Below, piece after piece: positions 7,546 to 50,108 of a stretch of 64,000 nt of DNA; the first letter of the stretch is position 1; the number at the start of each line of letters is the position of its first letter. Source of the stretch: Nannochloropsis salina CCMP1776 (taxonomy: Eukaryota > Sar > Eustigmatophyceae > Eustigmatales > Monodopsidaceae). The stretch spans positions 3,002 through 67,001 of the forward strand of contig SDOX01000159.1 of NCBI GenBank assembly GCA_004565275.1. The letters run 5' to 3'. The notes under the pieces are model-generated. The model did no database searches, was not told the origin of the DNA, and saw only the letters and a list, made by a program, of their open reading frames with translations. Position numbers and translations under genes: made by a program.

Positions 7546-8351
7546 TTAGATAGGCACGTGGTTCTCGAGCTTCACCTCCCAGATCCTCTCCGCCAGCATC
7601 TTGTAGCCCTCGTCCGTTGGGTGCACCCCGTCCCACCCGCGGGGGATCTGCAAGTCTCGCAGGTCGGCCACGTGGCAGTCGATCTTCGCCGTCGCGCAGG
7701 CCTCCGCCACCTTCTCCGTGCCGTAGTCTGCCGCCTTCTCCAAGCCACCGATGTAGAAGAAGCCCATCCAGATGACATGGGCCACTCCGTCTTCGTGCAT
7801 TTGCTCCAGCAGGTCGGAGCCGATGCTCACGGCCTCGTCGATTTGAAGCTTGCAGGCGTCGTCCATAGACTCGCAATCGCTGCGTTTGGAGATGACATCG
7901 TTCCCGCCCCCATCCATGATGATGGTGGTAGGCACCACAGTCTTGTCGAGCTCTGCGTATTCTGCTGGAATGCTCTCGGTCCACCCCTCGTGCAGCGAGG
8001 CACCGACGATGGCGATGTTCTCGATCTCATGCCCTGCCCATTCCTATCGGTACGCAACAAGGGGGAGGAAAAGGCGATCAAGAGTGACCGGTGAGTAGGA
8101 AAAGGCTGAGGAGCTCGACAATTTTCAAGGTATGACATCCCCATGCGTTTACAAGGGAGTTACCACCCATTTTGGTATGCACAGGCGAGGAACACGTTTG
8201 TGAGACAATTCCTGTTCATCGGGCGTACCTGAAGCCAATTATTGACCTTGCTCCCCCCGGCAAACATGGAGTCACCAATCATAACAGTGCGGGCCATGGC
8301 CATGGGCACAGCGGCGAAGAGGACAGAGGCGATGGAGGTAGAGAAGCGCAT
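7546..8351 (-). CDS. Secreted SGNH/GDSL hydrolase
   Basis: Esterase/lipase of the SGNH fold. Exons 8229-8351 and 7546-8043 join in phase 0 (donor CAG/GTACGC, acceptor ATAG/GAA) to give 206 aa. Residues 1-20 are a signal peptide ending AMA. Block I follows at once as VMIGDSMFAGG (Ser28). Block III is GGGND (Asn89). Block V is DGVHPTDEGY (Asp179, His182), so the catalytic set is complete. The small size and immediate block I resemble bacterial-type small esterases more than plant GDSL lipases, which are about 350 aa. The substrate is unknown; extracellular or endomembrane location is inferred from the signal peptide. Confidence 0.88.
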
Positions 8352-13201: not shown

Positions 13202-16200
13202 ATGTTCTTTCTCTCTGCCTTCGGAGTCCTCTGGCTTATCGTGGCGGTGGTCCTTGGCATTGCGTGGTGGTGTCTTCAACACTTCGTTCGCAGCATCGGA
13301 CCTCAATTTTTACGGGCCCATCTCCCAGGGCTTTCCTTCATCATCAACCCCTGCTGGGAACTGCATGTTGCAAGCTTCGAGTGCGGCGCGAGTTGTGTCC
13401 AATGGCGTGGTGGCAAGCTGTGCCTGTCGTTGGGAGGCTTCAGAACGACCTTGACCTTACGCCGCCGGGAGGGAGGAGAAAGCTCAGCGGGAAAGCGTTC
13501 GGAGCCTGGGAGCTTCGAGGACCAAGGCGAGGAAGGGGAGGAGCACGCCCTCCTTCGATCCCTGAGCCTGGCGAAGGGCGTGTCCTGGTTCGTCCAGGTC
13601 GGAAGTCGCTACCACCCGGTGTGGGAGTTGGCTGCCCCCTGGTTGCGTTTGACGCGGCCTTTCTTGCGTGTCATTGCCCTGTTGAGAGTGGAGGCTGGGG
13701 GCGGGACGGTGGAGGTACGGCTGGAAGGGGATGAGAGGGTGGAGCAAGAGGGAAGAGGGGTGGCGGGCGGGGCGGAGGAGGCGGTGCAGGGAGGGAGGCG
13801 GGGGGGCGGACGAGGGGTGAGTGGGGGCGGGAAGACGAGGTGATGGGGCGGGAAGACGGATGGCCCTCGCTGCTGGTGCAGGTGCAGACCCTGGTTTTCC
13901 AGCCCCAGGCTTGGACACGGAGGGAAGCAGATCCCCTCTTTGCCGACCCTGCTGCCCCGGGCGCCACGCCCTCCGGCGTCCTCTTCGAAGTTGGCCTCGG
14001 CGCGCCCCCCCCTCCCTCCCTCCCTCCTCCCCCTCCCTCCCTCCCTCCTCCCCCAAGACGCCACCCCCGTGTCTTCCTGCCCCATCACCCTCCACGTCTC
14101 CTCCACCGCCGCCTGCTCTCCTCCTTCTGAAGCAGCAGCCGCGCGAAGGACCTTCCGTGCTCATCCCCCTTCTGAGTGTGCAGGATCCCATCACTTTAAG
14201 AATGGACTTCCCCTGGCCTCCCGAGCGCGCGGGACAGGGCTCGACCGAGTCGGAGCCCGAGACAAACGAAGGCGGGAAGGCGGGGGGGAAGGTAGAGGAG
14301 GAGGCAGAGGAGGCATCGGAGGAGGAGGAGGAGGAGGAGGGAGGAAGCGAGGTACCGCCTCCGGCCCCGGGGCGACGGACGGGAAACGCCGAGAGGACGG
14401 TCCCGGAAGGCCAGAAAAAGGCCGAGAGGAAGGTTCTGGGAGGTTGGAGACGAGCACGGCCCTCACGTGGGACCTCGGGCAGCTTCGGCTTCCTGGCCCG
14501 CCCCCCCCTCCTCCCACGCTCCCTCTGCCTCCGTCTGGGGTCTGCGGCTCGGATCGGCCTCTGCCCCCCGACCTGGGCGCCCGCCTGGCAGGAAGTGATC
14601 TGGTCGGGGGTGATGGGGAGGGACGACACGGAGGGAGGTGGCCTCGTGCAACTACCGGCCCCGCCCTCCCCCCCTTCCTCCTCCTCCCCGCGCCCCCCCC
14701 TCAGACCTCCCGGGGTATCGCCCCTCCTCCAGCAGTACCTCCACAGTTTTCAGGAGCCAGCGCAGGCGGCCAAGGCGCATGCGCTCAGCCTCCCGGACCT
14801 CCTCCTCGCCAGCGAGTGGACCCAGTTCATGCTCGACTGCCCTTCCCTCCTCCTCAGCCTCCACCTCCCGCCCTTGCCGCGGGAGACTGGGGCGGCGGCG
14901 GAGGAGGGGTGGGAGGCGGTGATGGAATTGGAAGGTTTGGTGTTAAAGACGAGCCAGACCGCGGTGGAAGAGGACCGGCTCACGACGCTCTACCACCTTA
15001 ACCTTAGCCAGGCCCAGTGGCGCCTGAGAAAGGGCGGGAGGGAGGGTGGGAGGGAGGGCGGGAGGGAGGGCGGGAGGGAGGCGCCGGTGTCGCCAGCCTC
15101 CCTGTCCCTGGGGCCCGCGGAGGTGGAGGTAGGGGTCTCCCTCGCGCAGGAGGACGAGCTTCCCTCCCCCTCCCTCCCGCACTCCCTTGCTCCCTTCTCC
15201 CCCTCCCCGCCCGCCCTCAAGGACCGACCTCGCCTCCTCCCTCAGACCCGCCTCCTCCCTCAGACCCGCCTCCTCTATGACGTCTACGGCCTCCTCCTCC
15301 TCCATCGGCTCCGAGGGGAGGCACCGGCCGCCCTCCTTCCCGTCCTCCGTCGGTACCTCGCCCGGGTCCCTGGCCGGGCGAAGGGGAAGGCGGGGAGGCG
15401 AAAGGGAGGAGAGGAGGAGAAGGAGGAGGGGGAGGAGGAGGGAGAGGAGGAGGAGAAGGAGGAGGAGGAGGAGGAAGAGGAGGAGGAGGAGTCGCTTGTG
15501 CGGTGGAGTCTGAGCGCCCAGTGCCCGAGTGCGGAGGGCGTGTGTTGGGCGGTGGGGGAGGAGGGAGGGAGGGAGGGAGGGAGGGAGGGAGGGAGGTTTG
15601 CGTACACGCTGAAAGGGCTGGTGGAGGGGGCCCTGGTGGAGGGCGAGGCTCGGAGAAACGGGGAGATGATGGGGAGGGAAGAAAGTGTGTGGGGGGCATT
15701 CTGGAAGGTAAAGGGCAGGAAGCTGGGGGTGGAAATAACGATGGAGGAAGGCGGGGGGGAGGGCGGGGCCTGCCACGCGCCCGTCCTCTCCCTCAGCGAC
15801 TTGGTGGTGGAGGCGGGGGGGGGGTTGCAAGGGGAGGGGGAGGGCGGGGGGGAGGGCCAGGGGTCGGGGCCCTTGTCGGGCGTCCCGTCCGCGCCGACCG
15901 AGAGGGTCGTGCGGGTAGTGGCCGGCAAAGTCGGGGTGGATTGGAGTCCAATCCTGGTAGTGGGCCTGGCGAGCCTGGGCGGCCCCTGCCTGCTGCCCGC
16001 CTCCAAGAACAGAGCGCGGTGTCCAGCCCTCCCTCCTCCCCTTCCTCCCCCCGCTCCTCTCTCCGTCCCGGCAGTGGCGCGCCTTCTGGAGGGGGAGCTG
16101 GAGGCTGCCCTCCTTATGGGCCGTCTGACCTCGCTCAGCCTCTCCTTCCCCTCCTGTCTCACCCGCTCCCTGGGGGGCTTCTCGGAGGGAGAGGTCTGGG

Positions 16201-19200
16201 CCTGGTGGCAGGCGGGGAGGGAGGGCGGGAGGGAGGGCGGGAGAGAGGTGGTGGGGATTGAGGAGGCGACCTTCAAGGTGGGGCCCGGGCACGCGGACGG
16301 GGAGGAGAGGGACTGGATTGTGACGGTGCGGAACTGTCAGGTCGCGAGGGAGGAGGAGGAGGAGGAGGAGGAGGAGGAGGAGGAGGAGGAGGAGGAGGAG
16401 GAGGAGGAGGAGGAGGAGGAGGAGGAGGAGGAGGGAGTCGTTGGTAGGAAGGAGGCGTCGGCCGTCCGTTGTCGTCGGAGGCGGGCCGTGGCCGGAGCGA
16501 CGCCCCGGCCCGACAAGGAGGAGGAGGAGGAGGAGGAGGAGGAGGAGGAGGAGGCCCTACTGCCACGTCTCCCGCTTCGCCGTCCGGGAGCGACTCAAGG
16601 TGGTGGACGTTTGCGCGGGAGGCGTCCGGGTCGACTGGAGCCTTGGACAGCATCTGCGGGTCCACAAGGTCTCGCAGGACGTGACCTTGGGGGTCTGGGT
16701 CCTCCTCCTCCACCTCCGTCGGCGCCTCCCCCCCTCCCTCGCCCAGCGCCCCGGGGGCATGAACCCCCCCTTGGAGGACGCGCGGGCCTATGGGGAGATG
16801 CTCGGCGCCTTTCCCTTCCTGGTGGGCGCCAAGGGGACTCAGGTCCGCCACCGCCTCTTCGCCACCGACGTCCTTCTAGAAGCTTTCTTCCCGCCCGGGG
16901 CGGAGGGCGACGAGGGGCCCGGGCCGACCCCTGCCGAAACGGGAACCTCCCCTCCCTCCGCCCCGCCCTCACCCCCTTCCTCCCTCTCCTTGACCCTGAA
17001 GCTCGGCCTTTTCGCCTCGGAAGACCTGCCCGAGCTCTGGACCTTCGGGGACGTAAGCCTGGTGGTGGGGGAGGGCGGGGAGGAGGGCGGGAGGGAGGAG
17101 CCGACGCTGGTGGTGGAGGAGGTCCGGGTGCGGCACACGCTCCAGGACCGTCAGGACCTGGTCTTGGGCGAATTCCTGCAGGAGCTCCGCGTCCGGCACC
17201 GCCTGGCCGGTGGGCCCTCCCTCCCGCCCTCCCTCCCGCCCTCCTTCCCGCCCTCCCTCCTCCAGGGCCGGGAGGGCCACGCGGTCCGAGTCCAGGGGCT
17301 CCTCCTCCACCTCCGCTGGCACCTCCCCCTCGGCCCCTTCCTCCGCTGCGTCCTCCCCCAGGCTCGGGCCCTCCAAGAGAGCCTCGCTACCTCCCCCGGC
17401 CAGTGGACCCCCCCCCACCCCGACTTCGCACGCCTCTTCCACCGCCCGCATTGGCGCGCGGTGCCCACCCCGCCGCCCCTCCTCTGGGCTCAGGCAGAGG
17501 GGACGAGTCTGGAGGTGGGCGACGACCCCCTGGCATCCTGGCTCGCCTTCCTTCAGCCCTTGTGGACCCAGGAGCTCCAACACCGCGCGATCCGATCCGC
17601 CCAGACCTGGCGGCACGCGGCCCATGTCACCCGCACTTCCTCCACGGGGGTGCGCGAAGCCCCCTTCCTCCTCGCGGCCCTCCAGAACCATCTCCACGAC
17701 CTCGACGCCTCCTTCTACATCCGCGCCGTCCGCCGGCCCAATGCCTTGCCTGTGTTCCGATCCGCCCGCCCCTGTCTCCTGCGCCTGGAGGTGGGGGAGG
17801 TGGGGATGGAGATGGAGGCGATACCGTGTCGTCAAACCGGGGACCAGGCCGGAGGCGTGGAATGGATACCCGGATCGGGGGAAATGCGGGGGGTTCGCCC
17901 CCTCCCTCCCTCCCTCCCTCCCTCCCTCCCTCTTTCCCCGACCCCCTCTGCGGCCTCCGCCTCGCCCACGTGCAGGTCAGTCGGGTCCAGGCCCGCCACC
18001 GGTGGGACCCCAGCGACTTCCTCCTCCTCCCCTCCCTCCATTGCTGCGGCAGCCTCGTGCTCGCCTCCCATGCCCCCTCCTCCTCCCCGCCCCACCCCGA
18101 CGTGCGCGAGGAGGGGAGCGAGGGCGGGGCGGAGGGCCTGCTGCCGGGGCCTGCCGTCTTCCTGGACGTACAGATCGGAACGGAGGGGCTCGAAGCGGCC
18201 TTCACCCCGGGCCTGGAGTCCCTGCCTGACGAGGTGGGGGCCTGGGCCGCCCGCGCCCTCCCTCCCTCCCTCCTTCCCTCCCTCCTTCCCTCCCTTTTCC
18301 CCGCCCTCCCTGCCTCCCTTCCACCCCTCTCCTGGTGGGACCAGGTCCGCCACCGCCTTCGCGGTCGCTTTACCTTCACCGGGCGCGGAAGCTCCCTCCT
18401 CCTCCTCCTCCCTCCCCCTCCTTCCTCCTGCCCCTCCCTCGCCCCCTCCCTCCCGCACGCCACGGGGAGGGGCCGGACCGACCACCTCCGCCTGGAGCTT
18501 TCTTCTCTTCTCATCACCCACCAAGATGCCCTCCTCACCCTCCACATCCATCACGCCCGCCTCTACGCAGCTCTCCCCTCCCTCCCCTTCCTCCCGCCCC
18601 TCCTCTCCATCCCGTCCCTGCGCTGGTCCCTGGCCTTCCACTTTCATCACTTTCCCGCGGACTTCACGACTCCTAAGGAGGCGACAGCCACGGAGCAGGC
18701 GCTCCTGTCGCTGCCTTCCCACCGAACCTTCCGGGACTTGCTCAGTCAGGCGCTGGACGTGACGCTTCAGGTTCAAGCAGGCCCCCCCCCTCCTTCCCCC
18801 TCCCCTCCCCCCTCCCCCTCGACCTCGACCTCGCCCTCGGTTGAGACCGCGGAGGAAATCTCGCTGGAGGTGTACGGCCTGAGCCTTCCCGCCCTCGCCC
18901 TGTGGATCCGCCGCTTTGTCTCCGCCCTCAGGCGTCCTAAGGTGACGCCCCGAGGAGGAGGGAGCATCGGAAGGCGGGCGGGCGGGCGGCCGTGGAGCCG
19001 AGCCATGCGAGGTGTGCGGGCCCTGGTGCGCGCGGTGACGGTGGAAGAAGTGGGGATGGGGAGGACGAGGGTGCGATTGCTGGAGTCGTACCCGGGTGAT
19101 GAGGAGGGACGGGGTTTGGAGGTTCGGGTCCGGGACGGGGCGGCGCGCCTGTGTCTGGGCGAAGGAGGGGGGGAGGGCCCGGGGGAGGGCGTGGGAGAGG

Positions 19201-19671
19201 GCGTGCTGCTCGACCCCTTCCAGACCGGCTACCTCTTGGTGCCAGGCTCGGGGAAATCTCCATGGTACCTGCATGACGTGGCGGTGGAGATGAGGGGGGT
19301 GGAAGGGCGGCTCTTGGCGCCGGGGGAGGGCGGGAAGGAGGGCGGGGGGGAGGAAGGGGGGCCTGGGGAGCACCTGCTGTCTCTGGGCTCTTTTGAGTAC
19401 GCCCAGTGCAAGGCACGGCCGAAGGAAGGGCTGGACGGGTGGGAGGACGGGGGGAGGGCGGGGCCGAGGGAGGGCTTGGAGACCGGCGGAGCCTGCAGGC
19501 AGTCTTCGGGATCAAGCAGGGAGGGGAGGGAGTGGAGGGAGTGGAGGAAGGCGTCGGGAGTGGAGGGAGGGAAGGTGGAGGGGAGGAGGGGAAAGAGGAA
19601 GGGTTGTGCGAAGGGGCAGGGACGGACTCGGCCAGCCGAGACGCCGGCCCTTCCTCCCGCCCTTCCTCCCG
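13202..19671 (+). CDS. Bridge-like lipid transfer protein, FMP27/SABRE/Hobbit (BLTP2) type, broken by assembly gap
   Basis: Very large rod-shaped protein expected to channel lipids at ER contact sites. The N-terminus is a membrane anchor (MFFLSAFGVLWLIVAVVL) followed by VQWRGGKLCLSLGG, the family's first repeating beta-groove unit. Coding character continues for over 6 kb. Diagnostic pieces are ERLKVVDVCAGGVRVDWS, SWWDQVRHRLRGRF (the family's WWD motif) and GSFEYAQC. An intron is clear at 13817-13881 (phase 0). Frame changes near 14000-14140, 16440-16560 and 17880-17990 coincide with CCCT, GGGA or GAG repeats, and may be introns or indels. The homology is spread over two or three frames, so no full protein can be stated. 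Poly-Glu and GREGGREGG runs are translated repeats. The 3' end is lost in the gap. Confidence 0.8.
16346..16437. repeat. (GAG)n microsatellite in BLTP2-type gene
   Basis: About 90 bp of nearly pure GAG, encoding poly-Glu in the local frame. A shorter block lies at about 16517-16556. The coding frame changes across this interval. Confidence 0.9.
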
Positions 19672-19771
19672 NNNNNNNNNNNNNNNNNNNNNNNNNNNNN
19701 NNNNNNNNNNNNNNNNNNNNNNNNNNNNNNNNNNNNNNNNNNNNNNNNNNNNNNNNNNNNNNNNNNNNNNN
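19672..19771. other. Assembly gap (100 N)
   Basis: Exactly 100 unknown bases, a conventional placeholder for a gap of unknown size. It is flanked on the right by GAG/GAA microsatellite, which probably caused the break. It lies inside the BLTP2-type gene. Confidence 0.98.
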
Positions 19772-20275
19772 GAGGAGGAGGAGGAGGAAGAAGAAGAAGA
19801 GGAGGAGGAGGAGGAGGAGGAGGAGGAGGAGGAGGAAGAAGAAGAAGAAAAGGAGGGTTGGAGGCTGTCGTCGAACTCCTCGCTGAGCCCCGCTCGGCGT
19901 GCGACGTGTGGGAGGGGCGCCTCCCTCCTGACCCCTTCCTCCCCTCCCTCCCCCCCGTCCCCCGCTTCCCCTCCTTCCCCCCCTCCCGTTACCGCCCGCC
20001 GCTCCACTCCGCCCCCCGAGTCACATGTTCCTGGGAAGGAGGCGGGGGGGAGGGAAGGGCCAGCGAGCCTCCTCTTCGGGATGACGGGGGGAGGGAAGGA
20101 AAGCGACGAAGGGGAGGAGGCGGGAGAGGGGAAGGGGAGGGACGGGGGGAGTCCGCGGGCGGCGGAGCGGAAGCAGATGTTGTTCGGGGCCGAGGGAGGG
20201 AAAGGAAAGGGAGGCCTCTGGAGTCGTATGACGGGGGGGGGAAGCTGTAGCGGGGGCCGGAGGGCACTCATGTAG
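19772..20275 (+). other. Post-gap sequence, possible 3' part of the BLTP2-type gene
   Basis: Begins with about 85 bp of GAG/GAA repeat, then Ser/Pro/Gly-rich translation in two frames that stop at about 20250 and 20275. Neither frame shows family motifs, so continuity with the gene before the gap is only inferred from position. Confidence 0.3.
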
Positions 20276-34962: not shown

Positions 34963-36747
34963 ATGCTTTGGCACCGTCGACGCGGATTTTTATATTTAAA
35001 GTCTTCCGTGCTGAATTTCTTTGTCGTCGCTCCGTGCTTTCTCATACCCCCCCTCGCCCTGCTGGCCTCCGCGTGGCAACCAAACTTTTCCTTCTGCGTG
35101 CGGGACACGGGCATTCGAAGGCTTTTTTTGGGAACCGCAGCGACATTACACGGTCTAAAATCCCCACATATGGTCACCGCCACCGTCGGACCGACATCTC
35201 CCCTCGCCTCTGCATCTTTCCCCTCCCTTGCTCCGTCGCCCGCGTCCCCCACCTCAGGGACTGCAGCTTCACAGCCAGGGGGAGATCCCATCGTCAAACG
35301 CGTGTATGCGTATGCTCATGGCTTCCTTTCCGATGAAAACTCTTTCAAAGGAAGGCACCTTCAACAATTTTTGGCATCCCGCAACGCGCACCTCCATCTG
35401 CTCAACCTGAATGGCGGCGTCGGGGAGGGGATGGGGGGGATCAGCTATTCTCGAGGCCTGGCTGCGATTCGAGCTCTGTACGACAAGGAAGGAGGACGAG
35501 AGGGAAACGTAAAGTTGACGCTGGTGGGATCAAGTTTGGGGGGGTACGTGGCGGCGCGTTTCGCAGAGCTGTATCCGGAGGCCGTGGAGAAGCTGGTTCT
35601 TTTCTGCCCGGGCTTCGACTTGCAGGCTCGATGGCCCCGACGACTGGGAGGGGCAGCTATGCGCGCATGGATGAAGGAAGGGCACCGGGACTTCGAGGCC
35701 CGCCAGGGGGTGGTGCGAGTGCCATGGAGCTTCATAGAGGACGGCTGCCAGCACCCTCCCTTTCCCTCTTACACCGCGCCTGCACTCATCATTCACGGCC
35801 TTCGAGACGAGGTAGTGCCGGTAGAGACGACAACCGTGAGCCTGCTGGAGCAGGCCGGAGGCCAACTGAAGGAGTGGACGCAGGTGGTGCTCGTGGACGA
35901 TGACCACGGCCTTACCCAGCCCGCCACCCTGGCTGTGGCCTCGGGCGCCATCCTGGACTTTCTACAGATCCCTGCGCCTGCGGGTGACCCTGACGAGAAT
36001 GGGGCGGGGGAGGAAGGGGAGGGGCAAGGCGCGGTTTCAGCTGCTGACCACATCGAGGTAGAGGCCAAGCTCGCCCTTCCCGAGGACCGCCGGGCACTGG
36101 AGGAGAGCATCCTGGCGGCGGGTGGAGAGCTGAAGTGCACCGTGATCATGACGGACATTTATTGGGACTTGGGTGGCGAGGCCTTCAGTTTGTCCAACGT
36201 CTGGTTGCGGCAGCGTTCGGGTGTGTGGGAGCTGAAGGTGCCTGCCGTGGAGGGCGAACGTCCCAACACCCAGACCATCGCTTGCTACCGGGAAATCAAT
36301 GACGTGAGGGACATCGCCACTTGGCTTGTCAATGCATTTCCTACCCAACTGGGTCGATTACACCACCTTCCATTGGCCAAGATGCTGGCCGCTGCCGGGG
36401 CTCATCCGATAGCCTCCTACACAACACGAAGGAGCAAGTTCGTGATCAGAACTACCGATGACGATAAAAAAAAGGGCAGCGATGAGGGGAGGAAATCACA
36501 AAGCCATAAACTTTGCGTTGATATTGACGAAACATCATTCGGCTTCGGATTGGTGGAAGTCGAGGAGCTTGTTGCAGGGCACGGCGACATACCCGCCGCG
36601 AAGGCCCGTATTCAGCACTGTGCCCATGAATTACTGGGACTGGCTGAGATAGACGACGTTGTCCGTGGCAAGTTGGAGCGATACATATTGCTTCATAACC
36701 CGGCGCATCATCAGCGGCTCGTAAGACAGGGTGTTTTCAAGAGTTGA
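34963..36747 (+). CDS. Fusion of alpha/beta hydrolase (YqiA-like) and CYTH/thiamine-triphosphatase domain
   Basis: A single exon of 594 aa joins two enzymes. Residues about 110-335 are an alpha/beta hydrolase of the YqiA/UPF0227 kind: AHGFLSDENSFKG, nucleophile elbow LVGSSLGGYVAARF (Ser191), LIIHGLRDEVVPV (Asp282) and VDDDHGL (His315). After an acidic linker, residues about 362-590 are a CYTH tunnel domain: signature EVEAK (E365-x-E367-x-K369), DIYWDL, VWLRQRSGVWELKVP, RRSKFVI and VDIDETSFGFGLVEVEELV. This most resembles thiamine triphosphatase. The N-terminus is hydrophobic and ends LASAWQP, an ASAF-like motif with Trp for Phe, so plastid import is plausible. All key residues appear intact in both halves. 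The joint substrate is unknown. Confidence 0.9.
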   Translation: MLWHRRRGFLYLKSSVLNFFVVAPCFLIPPLALLASAWQPNFSFCVRDTGIRRLFLGTAATLHGLKSPHMVTATVGPTSPLASASFPSLAPSPASPTSGTAASQPGGDPIVKRVYAYAHGFLSDENSFKGRHLQQFLASRNAHLHLLNLNGGVGEGMGGISYSRGLAAIRALYDKEGGREGNVKLTLVGSSLGGYVAARFAELYPEAVEKLVLFCPGFDLQARWPRRLGGAAMRAWMKEGHRDFEARQGVVRVPWSFIEDGCQHPPFPSYTAPALIIHGLRDEVVPVETTTVSLLEQAGGQLKEWTQVVLVDDDHGLTQPATLAVASGAILDFLQIPAPAGDPDENGAGEEGEGQGAVSAADHIEVEAKLALPEDRRALEESILAAGGELKCTVIMTDIYWDLGGEAFSLSNVWLRQRSGVWELKVPAVEGERPNTQTIACYREINDVRDIATWLVNAFPTQLGRLHHLPLAKMLAAAGAHPIASYTTRRSKFVIRTTDDDKKKGSDEGRKSQSHKLCVDIDETSFGFGLVEVEELVAGHGDIPAAKARIQHCAHELLGLAEIDDVVRGKLERYILLHNPAHHQRLVRQGVFKS

Positions 36748-37015: not shown

Positions 37016-38482
37016 TTGCTTTTTTGGCGGTTGCAAGTACGCAGGAAGCCTTGTTGCAGTCCAATGCGGCTAAGATGCCTCGTAGTTCTAGGCATGCGCT
37101 TGAGTTTGGCCGTGGGATTCGTCTACCCCCCGACTCATGGCGGCGCGTTCGGGAGGTACAGCCCCAGCGAGGAGATGCCCGGCAATGTAAAAGATCGTGC
37201 AGAAAGAGCACGGTACCCAATCAACACCTTCGTCTCAAGCCAAATATCTAGCCATGAAGCCTTGCGCTTGCAGGAAATGTCTAGAAACTCTCCAGAGGGC
37301 GTGTTTCTGGATTTAACTTCCTGCGGCTGGGGCCTACTTAGCGTGTCAGGAGAGGATAGGCTGCGCTTTTTGCACAATCAACTCACGAATTCGTTCGCAA
37401 ACGCGCAAGTTGGTGATGTTATAGAATCATCTTACACGTCTTCGGTGGGAAGGGCCATAGACTTGGTGACTGCGTACGTACTGGAGGATGAGGTCCTGCT
37501 TTTGTCCTCACCACCACGGCACGAGCACGTCTTCGAGTCCTTCCACAAGTATATCTTCCCCTTAGACAGGTAAGGAAGCGACGTTGTCGGACCTTTACCC
37601 CCGGTTATCCCAGGGAGCTATCCATGGTGCCTGACCTCGTTGACATTGCCTCTCGGCCATCTTTCCAGGGTCCAGGTACACAAGAAGCAATTGCAGGGTT
37701 TTTTCATATACATGGGCCCAGAGGCGGCCTTGGCGAAGCTCTCCAATCTGTTGGAACACAAGGTCCCGCCTCCACAAGCTCATTGTTGCCATGCCTTACC
37801 TTCAGGCCTGGTGGTGGCCGAGGGGTCTGGCCTGGCCCTTCCTGGCCTCACCATGCTCGACGTGAGCGGTTCCTCGGGCGTGGCGGCCGCCGTCTCCAGC
37901 GCGGACATTCGTCTGGGGGGTGGAAAGGAGTGGGAGGCTCTCCGCATCCTGCAAGGGAGACCGTTTCCCGATAAGGAACTAACGCTGGAGGTCACGCCGT
38001 TGGAGGCGGGGTTGTGGCACACCGTGGATCCCGAGAAGGGGTGCTACCTGGGACAAGAGACTCTGGCCAAGCAGGCCAACAACAAGGGGGAGCGGCAGAG
38101 ACTCTTCGCCGTGAGAGGAAAGGGCTTAGAGGAGAAGCAACGGATCCTGGACTCGGCGGGTGGTCGGTCCGGGGTCGTGACCTCCTGTCTGAGCGATGAG
38201 GGGCGCGCGGGTCTGGCCTATATTCGGAAGACGGTGGCCCACCCCACCACTGCCAGCTTGTTCAACGAGGGAGGCACCGAGCCGCTGCAGGTCTCGGACA
38301 TTCCCTACGCGACGAGGGAGGCGACCACAAAGAAACAAGGCTCGACAGTGACACAGGAGATTGGACAGGCTGCGGAAAATACAAGTGCTGCGGACAAAGC
38401 TGTCGAGGCGGAACGTAAAGCTAAGAAGCTAGAGGAGATGAAAAAACGTCTTGAAGAATTTCAGAGAAAAAATAAAAAGTAA
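37016..38482 (+). CDS. Folate-binding YgfZ/IBA57-like protein, probably organellar
   Basis: GcvT-related protein of COG0354, which supports assembly or repair of Fe-S enzymes using tetrahydrofolate. Exons 37016-37569 and 37669-38482 join in phase 2 (GAC AG/G GTC) to give 455 aa. The signature is PEKGCYLGQETLAKQ. Other landmarks are DLTSCGWGLLSVSGEDRLRFLHNQLTN (begins about residue 103) and LEVTPLEAGLW. The start has several Met choices; the N-terminus MRLSLAVGFVYPP is signal-like with a GF step, so plastid or mitochondrial import is likely. A charged Lys/Glu tail (KKLEEMKKRLEEF) with coiled-coil character is an unusual extension. Plants have both a mitochondrial IBA57 and a plastid homologue; which one this is cannot be decided. 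Confidence 0.88.
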
Positions 38483-40217: not shown

Positions 40218-43200
40218 ATGACTTACCTAAAGATAGTGCAGCCACCGCTGATGGACGCCGACATCTCTTCCTATCGTGCTGCTCGCACCCAAAGTCTTGA
40301 GGTCTTCGGTGATCCTTTGTCGTCATGCGGCTATGCAATCTATCAAAACAAGATGCGAGAGAAGGCAAGTCTTAGAATGGAGGTAAGTTGTCGCGATTCA
40401 ACTGGCGCCGAAGTTGCCCTCTCTCGCCCCAGTCGCTCGCTCGCCGCCTGCAAGCCCAGCTTCCTCCGACCCGCCCTTAATGCATGCGACCTTACACAAG
40501 GAAAACGACAGGAACTGCTATCGAGTCGTAAGGCCGACTGAAAATAGCATCACACATTTTGACACAGTGGTCGGGGCGATGGTAGCAGCTGATGTCATCG
40601 AAATTTCCTCCTCCGAAGCCTCCACCTCCTCGTCGGACGAGGGGGAGGAAGCTGAAAGGGAGGGGGCGGACTCGGCGCTCCAGCCTCACGGGCAAAAACG
40701 GCGGGTCCGGTTGCGGCGGCCAAATCTTTCAAAAGCTATTGAAAATATTGAAGTCAAGAAGAATGATGCCATGGCCCAAAAGTCGAGAAAACGTTCAAGA
40801 CAGCGGCCCTCTCTTTCCTCTTGCAGTAGCAGCGACGAGGAAAAGACGAAAAGCAATCGGCACGCGTATGATGCAGGGGAAAACACTGATACTTGTGCAG
40901 AAGAATGCATCAAATCAAGTGTGCGGCGGTCGAACTTTTCCTCATGCGGTAAGGACAGTGGTAACGACATGGAGGGGGAGGATGAAGAGCAAGAGGAGGA
41001 GGAGGAGGTTGATGAGCAGGCGGGGTATGAAAAAATGGAGCCCGGTGGAAAAGGCATAAGACAAACTGTACGGCAAGGAAAGAAACGCATTTCAGTCGCG
41101 CTGAGAAGCGCGTCAAAGAGATCTCAGAGCCACGCGAAGAGCCCGGCGGGAGTCTCGGACGCCGGAAGCCTAGACGAGGAGGTGGGGCCCCCGCGGCGTC
41201 GGTCCCGGACCGCCATGACAGGTACCCCGCCTGCCTCCTCCTCCCCCGCTGCCGATACCCCAAGCCTCTTCCCATCTTCTACCAAGAAAGTTCCTAAAAT
41301 GGAGGCGCATGCCCGCCCTAGCGGGAATCATGTCAACGCTTTGCGCCTCGTGTTTGGCAAAACGCCACGGCCTGCTCTAGATAAAGCCTCCAGCAAACAA
41401 GCCCCTTCCAGACATCCACGCCATATCAAGGAGGAGCCCGCAGGAGGCAAATCAGGGGCTTTGGGTGCGGGCTCTCTGTGGACCGAGAAACACCGACCCC
41501 GCAAGGCAGCCGACCTCTCCATCCCGCCCAAGAAAGTGCGCGAAGTCCAGCAATGGCTGGAGGGAGCCCTTGGTCTGGTGTGTGAGGAAAGCGGCTTGCG
41601 TCCGGGCACGGATAAAGGGGGGGGCCAGAAGCTGCTGGTAGTGAGGGGGCCAGCTGGAGTGGGCAAGTCGGCTATGGTGCAGGTCCTAGCGGAGGCGTTG
41701 GAGCTGCCATTGCTACGGTGGACGGAAGAGACCCCCTGGGAGAGCCGCGAGGACGCGAAGAGAAAAAAGTGGGAGGGAGATGAGATGGAGATGGGCGGAG
41801 GTGGGGGGCAGTACGTCTCGCAGGCGGAGGGGTTCCGAGCCTTCGTGCGCGGCGCGGCCTATGGACCCCTGGAGGTGGCGCCATCGGCAAAGGCGGGCCT
41901 CGATCGATCCAGGGATGCGGGTGACCCGAATGCCTGCGGTAATGGGGCAGATCCGGGGGCAGAGGGTCGTCGTCAGGGCCCAAAAGGAGAGCGGAAGGGG
42001 GAAGACGTGCGCCGGGCGCTGCTTGTGATGGAGGAGGTACCTTACCATGCGACTGGGCGGGCCGCCGCCCATTTCCAAGCGGCTCTCACGAGCTTCCTGG
42101 CCGCGTCGGTACATCCTGCGGTGGTTATCTTCACGGAGGAGCACGAGGACAGGGCGGGCTCGGGCGCCCTGGAGCGCTTGCTGACCAGGCCATTGCTGCA
42201 GGCGAAGGGCGTGCGCCAGATCCACATAAACCCCGCCACCGACGGTAGGGAGGGCTGTTGGGAGGGGCGTGGAAGCCTGTTAAAGACTGAAAAGGCCGGG
42301 CGATAGACATACCAGGAGTCGTCTTCATCGACTTTCGCCTCCCGACACAGGAGGTGTCGCCACTCGTATCTCAGCAATGCACTCACGCTCTCTGCCTTCC
42401 TTTCCCCCTTTTACCCTTCCCACGCCTGTACTCCTGGGGCGCCAGCCAACATGCGCAGAATCCTGACGCACATCGCCTTGGCCGAGGGCCTGGGCCCGTC
42501 CAGGTCCGAGGTGGAGGCTATCGTTGCCTGCAGCCGGGGAGACCTCCGGCATGCCATCCTCACCCTCCAGTTGCAGCTTCAAGCGAGCCGGGCTGCCCCT
42601 AACGCTCCCCCACGGGCCCTGGCCAGGTCCGATGCTTCAGCTTCCTCCTCGCACCTGTTGCGACAATGCGCGGGGGGGCGAATGGGGGGTGGGGGCCGAG
42701 GGGAAGAGGACAAGGGGGGAGAGGGAAGGGGAGGAAGGAGAGTGGGGAGAAGGAGGGAGGGAGAGGAGGCGGAGAGGAAGGACACGTACATGTCCAGTTT
42801 CCACGCACTCGGCAAGGTCTTGCACGCGAAACGCTTGCCGGAGTCGGACGAGTCCTGGAAAGGGGAGGGCGATCCGCGCGGAAGACTATCTTTCGTGCCC
42901 GAGGAAGTGCTCAAGAGGTGCGAGATGGAGGCGGAGGGACTCTCCGCTTTCGTCCAGACCCACGCCCTCGCCCTCTTCGGAGACGTGGAGGAGCTGGCGG
43001 AGGCGATGGCATTCTTTGCCGACGCAGACGTGCTGCTGGCGCGTGTTTATAGCACGGCATTCGTGAGTGCGATATGATGGAGGGGGGAGGGGAAGCCTTC
43101 CGTGGAAGCTTTCCTTCTAATGACCGAGCATTGATCTTTTCCCAGAATTTCTGTCCTGCCCGATAGTATCATAGTCTTCGTCTCCCCTCACCCACCTCGA

Positions 43201-48232: not shown

Positions 48233-50108
48233 TTACGACGCCTTACTCTTCCCTGTGGCTTCCCCTTCTCCTGCTGAGTCTCCCGACCCTTCGGCTGTGT
48301 TCCTCAGCACGGGGACCTTCCCAAGGCCGAACGGCCGCTCCCGTGGGTACTTTGACTGGTAGCGCACCGAGAAGACGTCAATGTAATAATTAGCCTGGGT
48401 GGTGTCATCGAAGAAGGGGGGGGTATGAGGATACCATTTTCTCACATATCGTGGAGGCGCATCGGGGTTGAGACACTCATCAAACTCATCAAGACGCCGG
48501 GGAAGACCGAATAACGCACCCCGTTGAAGACGGCGACCGTGAACATGCCCAGCCCGTAGGCGACATGCAATTGGAACGAATGATAGATGACAAGGGCGGG
48601 TAGACACGTCAGCAAAGTGTAGATGAACTGTGTAAGGATGAAGATCGACTTGGTCTTGAGCGTTCGGTGGTCAAAGCGCTCGTCGGGAGCGAGCACACCC
48701 GTGGCTCGGGTCAGGCGGAGCACCAGGCGGTGCAGGGCGTTCTTCTGGTCCTTCGCCAGCCAGCGCAAGCTTGTCTGCAGCTCCGGATCGGCTTCTAAAC
48801 GGGCCCTGTCCAGGATTTCGATTTTCACGTAGTACATGATTTGCCAAGCCAAGTACACGAAGGCCGCGGGGAGGAGGTCCTTGACTTCCATTGACCCACA
48901 GGCGTCCAGCGTTGCAGCTGCTGATGGTGAGGAGGGGTACCATCTGAGTGCATAAAGGAGGAGGCCCGGGTAAACGTGGATGTAAAGGCTGGTGATCTTC
49001 TCCAAGTCGTGGAAGACCAGACTGTTGCGCCACACAGGAACCGCGAAAGCCAGCGGCCCATTCGCGAGCAAGAAAATGGACTTGAGCAGGTTGCAGTTGG
49101 ATGGGAAAGCGTAGAGCTGGAGTATGCATAGGACTTGAACGAAATAGCCTGGAGTGCGTGCAGGTGGAAAAGCGTAACAAGAACAAGGGGCAGGGAGGGC
49201 GGTCATGAGGTCCCGAGAGTATGGGTCTACCCTGCGCCATAAGCGATACATGATCGCGACCCGGTCGAATCTCAGCAATGTTACCTATATCACCAGATTA
49301 GATCTTCATTGCTTGTATTTCTACGCAGCTGACGCACATGCACGTGAACCCCTCTAGCGGCTCCCAGGCACTTACAGAAGTCGAGGAGGAAGAATCCCCA
49401 CTTGAGAGAGCGGTAGTGCGGGATGCGAAAGAAGACCAGCACTGGAATCACAGCCATGTACCAGGCCCAGAAGACGTGAGGGAACTTGATGAGCATAAAC
49501 TCGCTCACTGTCAGGTTGAGCACGCCGAAGGTGAAGGCGAGCTTGTCCAGGCGCCGGGCCACGGGGGGTTCTCGGATGTGGTCCCGCACGCGCTTCATCT
49601 CGTCGCCCGTCACGGCCTTGCGCCAGCGCTTCTGCACGCTAGCCCGCAATAAAGCAGTAAGTTGCCGGCGCTGGTCCGCGATTCCCGCCTTGACCGAGCT
49701 GCTGGCGGCCTCCCCCTCCAGCTCCTTCAGGTCCCCGATCACCCTCCTCAACACCTCCCCGTTCATCGTCGCTGCTTCACTTGCCGCCGCTACCGTCGCC
49801 GCCGCACTCGTCAAGATATCTCCGTCGGGGTCGCCTTTCAACATATACATCCACAGATTCGACAAGAGGGAACGGAATAAGAGACATGCATGATTTCCTC
49901 ATGCCCATCCCGGCCGTGTATTTGGCAAAAGTCCTTTCCCACCAAATTCCTTACCCGCGAAAAGAAGGTCACGCTCATTGATCTTGTTAGAAGTATACAT
50001 CATTGAATCCGGACTAGCGGGTGCGGATACGCCCGGAGACGCGGATTCTTCCATGGAATCCGATGCGGGCGCCCCGCATCCTCTGTCACTGCCTTCGCCG
50101 TTGCTCAT
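48233..50108 (-). CDS. GPC1: Glycerophosphocholine acyltransferase (GPC1/GPCAT family)
   Basis: Multi-pass ER enzyme that acylates glycerophosphocholine to lysophosphatidylcholine, part of phosphatidylcholine remodelling. Exons: 49955-50108, 49376-49897, 48520-49148 and 48233-48394, phase-consistent, 488 aa. The family block is visible: LDKLAFTFGVLNLTVSEFML, FFRIPHYRSLKWGFFLLDFC, FLLANGPLAFAVPVWRNSLV, FHDLEKITSLYIHVYPGLLL and YALRW. The last junction restores VFNG/ANYYIDVFSVRYQSKYP, a family hallmark split by a phase-0 intron. About eight hydrophobic segments are present. The first exon (51 aa, Ser/Pro-rich) and its 57 bp intron are less certain. The C-terminal tail is Gly/Glu/Ser-rich. Confidence 0.9.

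Follow-up and report, generated by a model that had tools for sequence, protein, structure and literature searches.

A single open frame in Nannochloropsis salina predicts a fusion of an alpha/beta hydrolase with a thiamine-triphosphatase-like CYTH domain

We analyzed a 64,000-nucleotide stretch of contig SDOX01000159.1 from Nannochloropsis salina CCMP1776 (here called the window). Positions 34963-36747 of the forward (+) strand form a single open frame, including the stop, that runs from an ATG through 594 codons and requires no intron. The frame joins an alpha/beta-hydrolase domain to a CYTH domain, the fusion that a preliminary description of this DNA had proposed. We found no intron or frame error separating the two domains: the gene matched one contig (C36) of its own 26.5-Mb assembly at 100%, with zero internal stops. 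The domains are connected by a linker at about residues 339-362 (35977-36048, +), and model confidence was low in its middle (pLDDT <50 at model residues 241-250, which are protein residues 345-354). A profile search of the same genome, done exon by exon with the best candidates scored, found the fused gene as the only CYTH match and the only UPF0227 match, and because of that design it could miss a split paralogue. The genome also contains ThiC, thiamine pyrophosphokinase and VTC domains.

Several other features of the window are worth recording. The next gene downstream (37064-38482, +) consists of two open frames, likely separated by an intron; the first has a match to the GCV_T folate-binding domain and the second to no Pfam family at 1e-5. 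A 608-aa frame at 40480-42306 (+) begins with a long low-complexity N-terminus, followed by a Rad17 P-loop domain, and a frame at 48442-49251 (-) matches positions 59-111 of the 111 in DUF2838 (PF10998) and is probably an exon of a membrane protein. Two frames (13860-19886, +; 18937-20271, -) contain runs of X, that is, masked or unresolved sequence, next to long stretches of Arg/Lys or Ser. The repeats GREGGREGG and PSLPPSLP inside frames suggest simple-repeat expansion.

The hydrolase domain of the fused gene lies at 35305-35919 (+). UPF0227 (PF05728) matched residues 115-319 at 39.5 bits (cut-off 21), and Hydrolase_4 matched residues 133-236, also above its cut-off. The model of this half matched a feruloyl esterase (7wwh), a lipase (7q4j) and ABHD10 (6ny9). 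The predicted catalytic residues are Ser191 in GSSLGG (35533-35535, +), Asp282 in HGLRDEVVP (35806-35808, +) and His315 in VDDDHGL (35905-35907, +). This catalytic set had been proposed in the preliminary description, and all three residues are invariant in an alignment of the window protein with the related proteins P0005, P0009 and P0016. The hydrolase had also been called YqiA-type. That label stands at the level of the YqiA/YcfP-like UPF0227 family; with Hydrolase_4 enzymes as well, the protein shares the motifs GxSxGG, HGxxDxxVP and DDDH. It does not stand for YqiA itself, as the YqiA equivalog model (NCBIfam PRK11071) gave 20.5 bits against a cut-off of 252. An enzyme of the YqiA/YcfP family from Pseudomonas is described as active on short-chain p-nitrophenyl esters (PMC13230378).

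The CYTH domain (PF01928; 36049-36666, +) matched residues 363-568 at 33.1 bits, above its cut-off of 23.2. Its nearest solved relatives are thiamine triphosphatases (ThTPases), in keeping with the original suggestion that it is thiamine-triphosphatase-like. The window protein alone found mouse ThTPase at E 4.4e-14, and in a profile search of solved structures all five CYTH chains among the best 60 of 65 matches were ThTPases. A ThTPase fold is predicted with confidence for this half. The structure model drew on 31 of the 80 hydrolase loci from bacteria and on 15 of our 16 database proteins; an earlier model from 7 sequences (pLDDT 41) was set aside. An alignment that included six bacterial CYTH domains was also discarded: they fell on the hydrolase half, and they were removed before the second prediction.

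We compared the CYTH half to the sequence criteria of Vogt 2021 (PMC8233210). In that paper, W/YxRxR defines ThTPases and occurs elsewhere only in the TTM1/2 cluster, which lacks ExExK; an HF motif marks cyclases; and the remaining CYTH clusters carry small residues in place of the Trp. The window protein has ExExK (E365-V-E367-A-K369; 36055-36069, +), found intact as the preliminary description had it, WxRxR (W414-L-R416-Q-R418, corresponding to mouse W53, R55 and R57; 36202-36216, +) and a second acidic ExE motif for metals 1 and 2 (E532-V-E534, mouse E157 and E159; 36556-36564, +). By these criteria the predicted CYTH domain falls with the ThTPases. E365, E367, K369, W414, R416, R418, K425, E532 and E534 are invariant across the window protein, P0005, P0009 and P0016.

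We also picked 21 positions of mouse ThTPase for comparison, and 18 of these are identical in the window protein (E7, E9, K11, Y39, D41, W53, R55, R57, W62, E63, K65, Y79, R125, D145, D147, E157, E159 and K193). The three that differ are T143 (Cys), A192 (Gly) and M195 (Glu572). In the thiazole pocket, whose contacts are structural and are not given as a defining feature, the tyrosine is kept (Tyr442; mouse Tyr79) and Met195 is replaced by the glutamate. In the structure of the mouse enzyme this methionine packs against the thiazole (PMC4641920). Glu is present at this position in 10 of 10 relatives as well. The D41 position is Asn in P0005 and the Y79 position is His in P0016. Trp occupies the W53 position in 10 of 11 rows, with Phe in P0015, and in none of 12 bacterial CYTH rows. 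These 12 were drawn from 24 genomes that have a hydrolase relative and do not amount to a general survey; bacterial columns at mouse K65 looked misaligned and were set aside.

Assignment as a class IV adenylyl cyclase (CyaB) was rejected. Such a cyclase is recognized by the HF motif and by replacement of the first Arg of the RxR pair. The ten residues preceding E365 are QGAVSAADHI, with no HF, and R416 is kept. One relative, P0003, is named 'adenylate cyclase class IV' in its source (JGI). This is likely a misannotation, as P0003 lacks HF and has the ThTPase signature.

The N-terminus of the window protein may act in targeting. Residues 1-69 (34963-35169, +) are a predicted presequence. Its first 37 residues contain a hydrophobic stretch (mean hydropathy 2.5 over its best 13 residues, starting at residue 16), no acidic residues and a LASA end before WQP, so that LASAWQP (residues 34-40) follows the hydrophobic stretch, as had been noticed earlier. 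A Ser/Thr/Pro-rich stretch at residues 71-105 has 13 Ser/Thr and no acidic residues. A second in-frame start, Met70, is at 35170. The N-terminus resembles the ASAFAP-type start of ochrophyte plastid proteins (PMC5462543), and a plastid location is possible. LASA-WQP is also found in P0001, which shares 59 of 68 aligned residues with residues 1-69 of the window protein, with a one-residue gap, compared with 213 of 228 in the hydrolase and 223 of 233 in the CYTH domain. The gene models of P0004 and P0005 lack the presequence, P0002 and P0003 are modeled with other starts, and the start of P0009 is only mildly hydrophobic.

The fusion is conserved. Three protein searches yielded 16 distinct proteins, and eight of them (P0001, P0002, P0003, P0004, P0005, P0006, P0009 and P0016, with P0006 missing its start) combine CYTH with an alpha/beta-hydrolase family in a single chain. 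The fusion is thus not due to chance, nor is it lacking in relatives. Each search scored the 7992-7993 candidates sharing most words, and absence elsewhere therefore does not follow. P0001 is 93% identical to the window protein and of equal length (594 aa), and P0004 is a CYTH protein of Nannochloropsis oceanica by its NCBI name. P0009 and P0016 are only 38% and 33% identical, so the fusion extends beyond the close relatives of Nannochloropsis. If an assembly or gene-model artefact had joined two genes, one would not expect a single open frame, the same join in eight further proteins from several sources, or conservation in P0001 of 21 of the 23 residues between the domains. We consider such an artefact almost certainly excluded.

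Other proteins in the set are partial or match the hydrolase only. P0007 has the hydrolase end and CYTH, P0008 the hydrolase and, by alignment, the CYTH start, and P0015 is a CYTH piece. The longest contigs of P0008 and P0015 both measure 4031 bases, and the two proteins probably represent one gene cut by an intron. In this more distant relative Phe replaces the ThTPase Trp, and the intron is apparently inside the CYTH domain. Five proteins (P0010-P0014) match the hydrolase only.

We built a hydrolase tree of 94 rows, rooted at the midpoint; the rows were fetched by means of an alignment with P0011 at its head. Nine fused or part-fused rows (the window protein, P0001-P0005, P0008, P0009 and P0016; P0006 and P0007 were omitted as truncated) and the hydrolase-only P0010 form one clade (support 100/99). 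One stretch without a clean translation (L016) was kept in the tree and omitted from the structure model. P0010 adjoins P0016, indicating that P0010 lost its CYTH domain or that its record is incomplete. The simplest reading of this midpoint-rooted tree is one fusion event. The clade is inside a group of 25 rows, most of them from Myxococcota, with Acidobacteriota and proteobacteria also represented (support 83/85, with an open fork). This placement suggests a bacterial source for the hydrolase half, the half that the midpoint-rooted tree covers. The seven rows from cyanobacteria group apart in a clade of their own, and with rows fetched and rooted in this way the tree did not support a cyanobacterial (plastid) source for the hydrolase.

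Bacterial gene context gave no hint of a functional link for the hydrolase. None of the 80 bacterial hydrolase loci (each 3.3-12.7 kb long) had a CYTH-profile ORF of at least 80 aa, the profile's 12 positives in this test being its own training rows. In this, and in falling short of the YqiA equivalog model, the window protein is unlike its UPF0227 and Hydrolase_4 kin. A CYTH match was present in 12 of 24 bacterial genomes, always on a contig differing in size from the hydrolase contig. Among the best 25 of 72 neighbor families (from 67 ORFs, cut to 450 aa, in 35 of the 80 loci) there was no CYTH or thiamine-related family. In viral contigs, 34 pattern matches contained no relative. The best 50 of 1038 matches in a viral fold search were mostly alpha/beta hydrolases, with two CYTH proteins and a few others, at query-length TM-scores of at most 0.33.

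These observations bear on the earlier idea of a two-step reaction in which both sites handle one and the same phosphorylated ester. In its favor, the domains are in one chain, and both sets of active-site residues are kept in the aligned fused proteins. The lack of a CYTH ORF in the bacterial loci and the separate contigs in the 12 genomes count against it. In addition, we are aware of no natural substrate that is an acylated thiamine triphosphate or polyphosphate ester. We regard this idea as decidedly improbable.

The residue signature of ThTPases leads us to predict that the protein breaks down thiamine triphosphate (ThTP), which derives from vitamin B1. On a slim balance of probability, we favor a bifunctional enzyme in which the CYTH half converts ThTP to thiamine diphosphate (ThDP) and the hydrolase half cleaves an acyl ester or thioester; the plastid is a possible site. 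By analogy to mouse ThTPase, ThTP would sit in the CYTH tunnel with Trp414 stacked on the thiazole, the acidic motifs would hold the metals, Lys425 and Tyr400 would be the catalytic pair, and the site would release Pi and ThDP. The putative serine hydrolase would act on its ester or thioester. Tethering most likely sets a shared location or stoichiometry and probably serves co-localization rather than a shared substrate. Several observations weigh against our favored reading: Glu572 in place of Met195, the presence of W/YxRxR in the pyrophosphate-preferring plant TTM1/2 cluster (though without ExExK), the lack of the presequence in other gene models, and bacterial gene neighbors that offer no clue to the hydrolase substrate.

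It is possible, if on the unlikely side, that the CYTH half is instead an inorganic tripolyphosphatase or pyrophosphatase of the plant or bacterial TTM kind, acting in phosphate or polyphosphate turnover, with the Trp incidental. Several of the TTM proteins characterized from bacteria, archaea and plants are tripolyphosphatases (PMC8615392), W/YxRxR is shared with TTM1/2 (PMC8233210), and the replacement of Met195 by Glu and the presence of a VTC domain in the genome fit this alternative. However, the solved structures closest in sequence and fold are ThTPases, ExExK is intact, unlike in the TTM1/2 cluster, small residues take the place of the Trp in the other clusters described in PMC8233210, and the Trp was absent from all 12 bacterial CYTHs compared.

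It is also conceivable, though improbable, that the CYTH half is mainly a sensor, in which ThTP or another triphosphate in the tunnel gates the attached hydrolase. The two-domain model has a high pTM, a hint that the interface is fixed, and plant ThTP, reported mainly in plastids and mitochondria, has been suggested to signal ThDP sufficiency (PMC8615392). In contrast, the compared metal and phosphate ligands are kept, and catalysis is therefore expected. A further notion, which we offer as a long shot, is that in algae with complex plastids a ThTP-specific enzyme is wired to a serine hydrolase, such that photosynthetic ThTP is both erased and read out, gating acyl-ester or lipid hydrolysis in the plastid.

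If the CYTH half is a ThTPase, it addresses a gap. According to a 2021 review, microorganisms, fungi and plants had no known specific ThTPase (PMC8615392). A coral-associated green alga contained measurable ThTP, which rose at 32 C (PMC11326117), making ThTP turnover in algae a real question. A CYTH domain with the ThTPase signature, apparently outside animals, provides one named gene for the question of the missing non-animal ThTPase, and its fused partner is a direct route to asking what ThTP is for. Algae bearing this gene can be transformed.

The fusion differs from each of the known systems that it resembles. Mammalian THTPA (PDB 5a64, 3tvl, 3bhd), reported to be cytosolic in animals (PMC8615392), is 27-31% identical to the CYTH half; it is a stand-alone chain with Met195, whereas the window protein is fused and has Glu572. 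Plant TTM1 and TTM2 (uridine kinase-CYTH) are likewise two-domain CYTH proteins with W/YxRxR, but they have a kinase partner, have lost ExExK and prefer pyrophosphate (PMC8615392, PMC8233210). The window protein retains ExExK, and no kinase family was among its 8 Pfam hits to E 1. E. coli YgiF (CYTH-CHAD) also has two domains, but its CYTH domain is N-terminal, its partner is CHAD, and it is a tripolyphosphatase (PMC8615392, PMC8233210). The CYTH partners named in the available text of Vogt 2021 are HD hydrolase, exopolyphosphatase, nucleotidyl kinase and CHAD, and not an alpha/beta hydrolase (PMC8233210); nor did we find a description of a hydrolase-CYTH fusion in the open-licence literature. 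The family of each domain was already known. What appears to be new is their combination in one protein and a CYTH domain with the ThTPase signature apparently outside animals.
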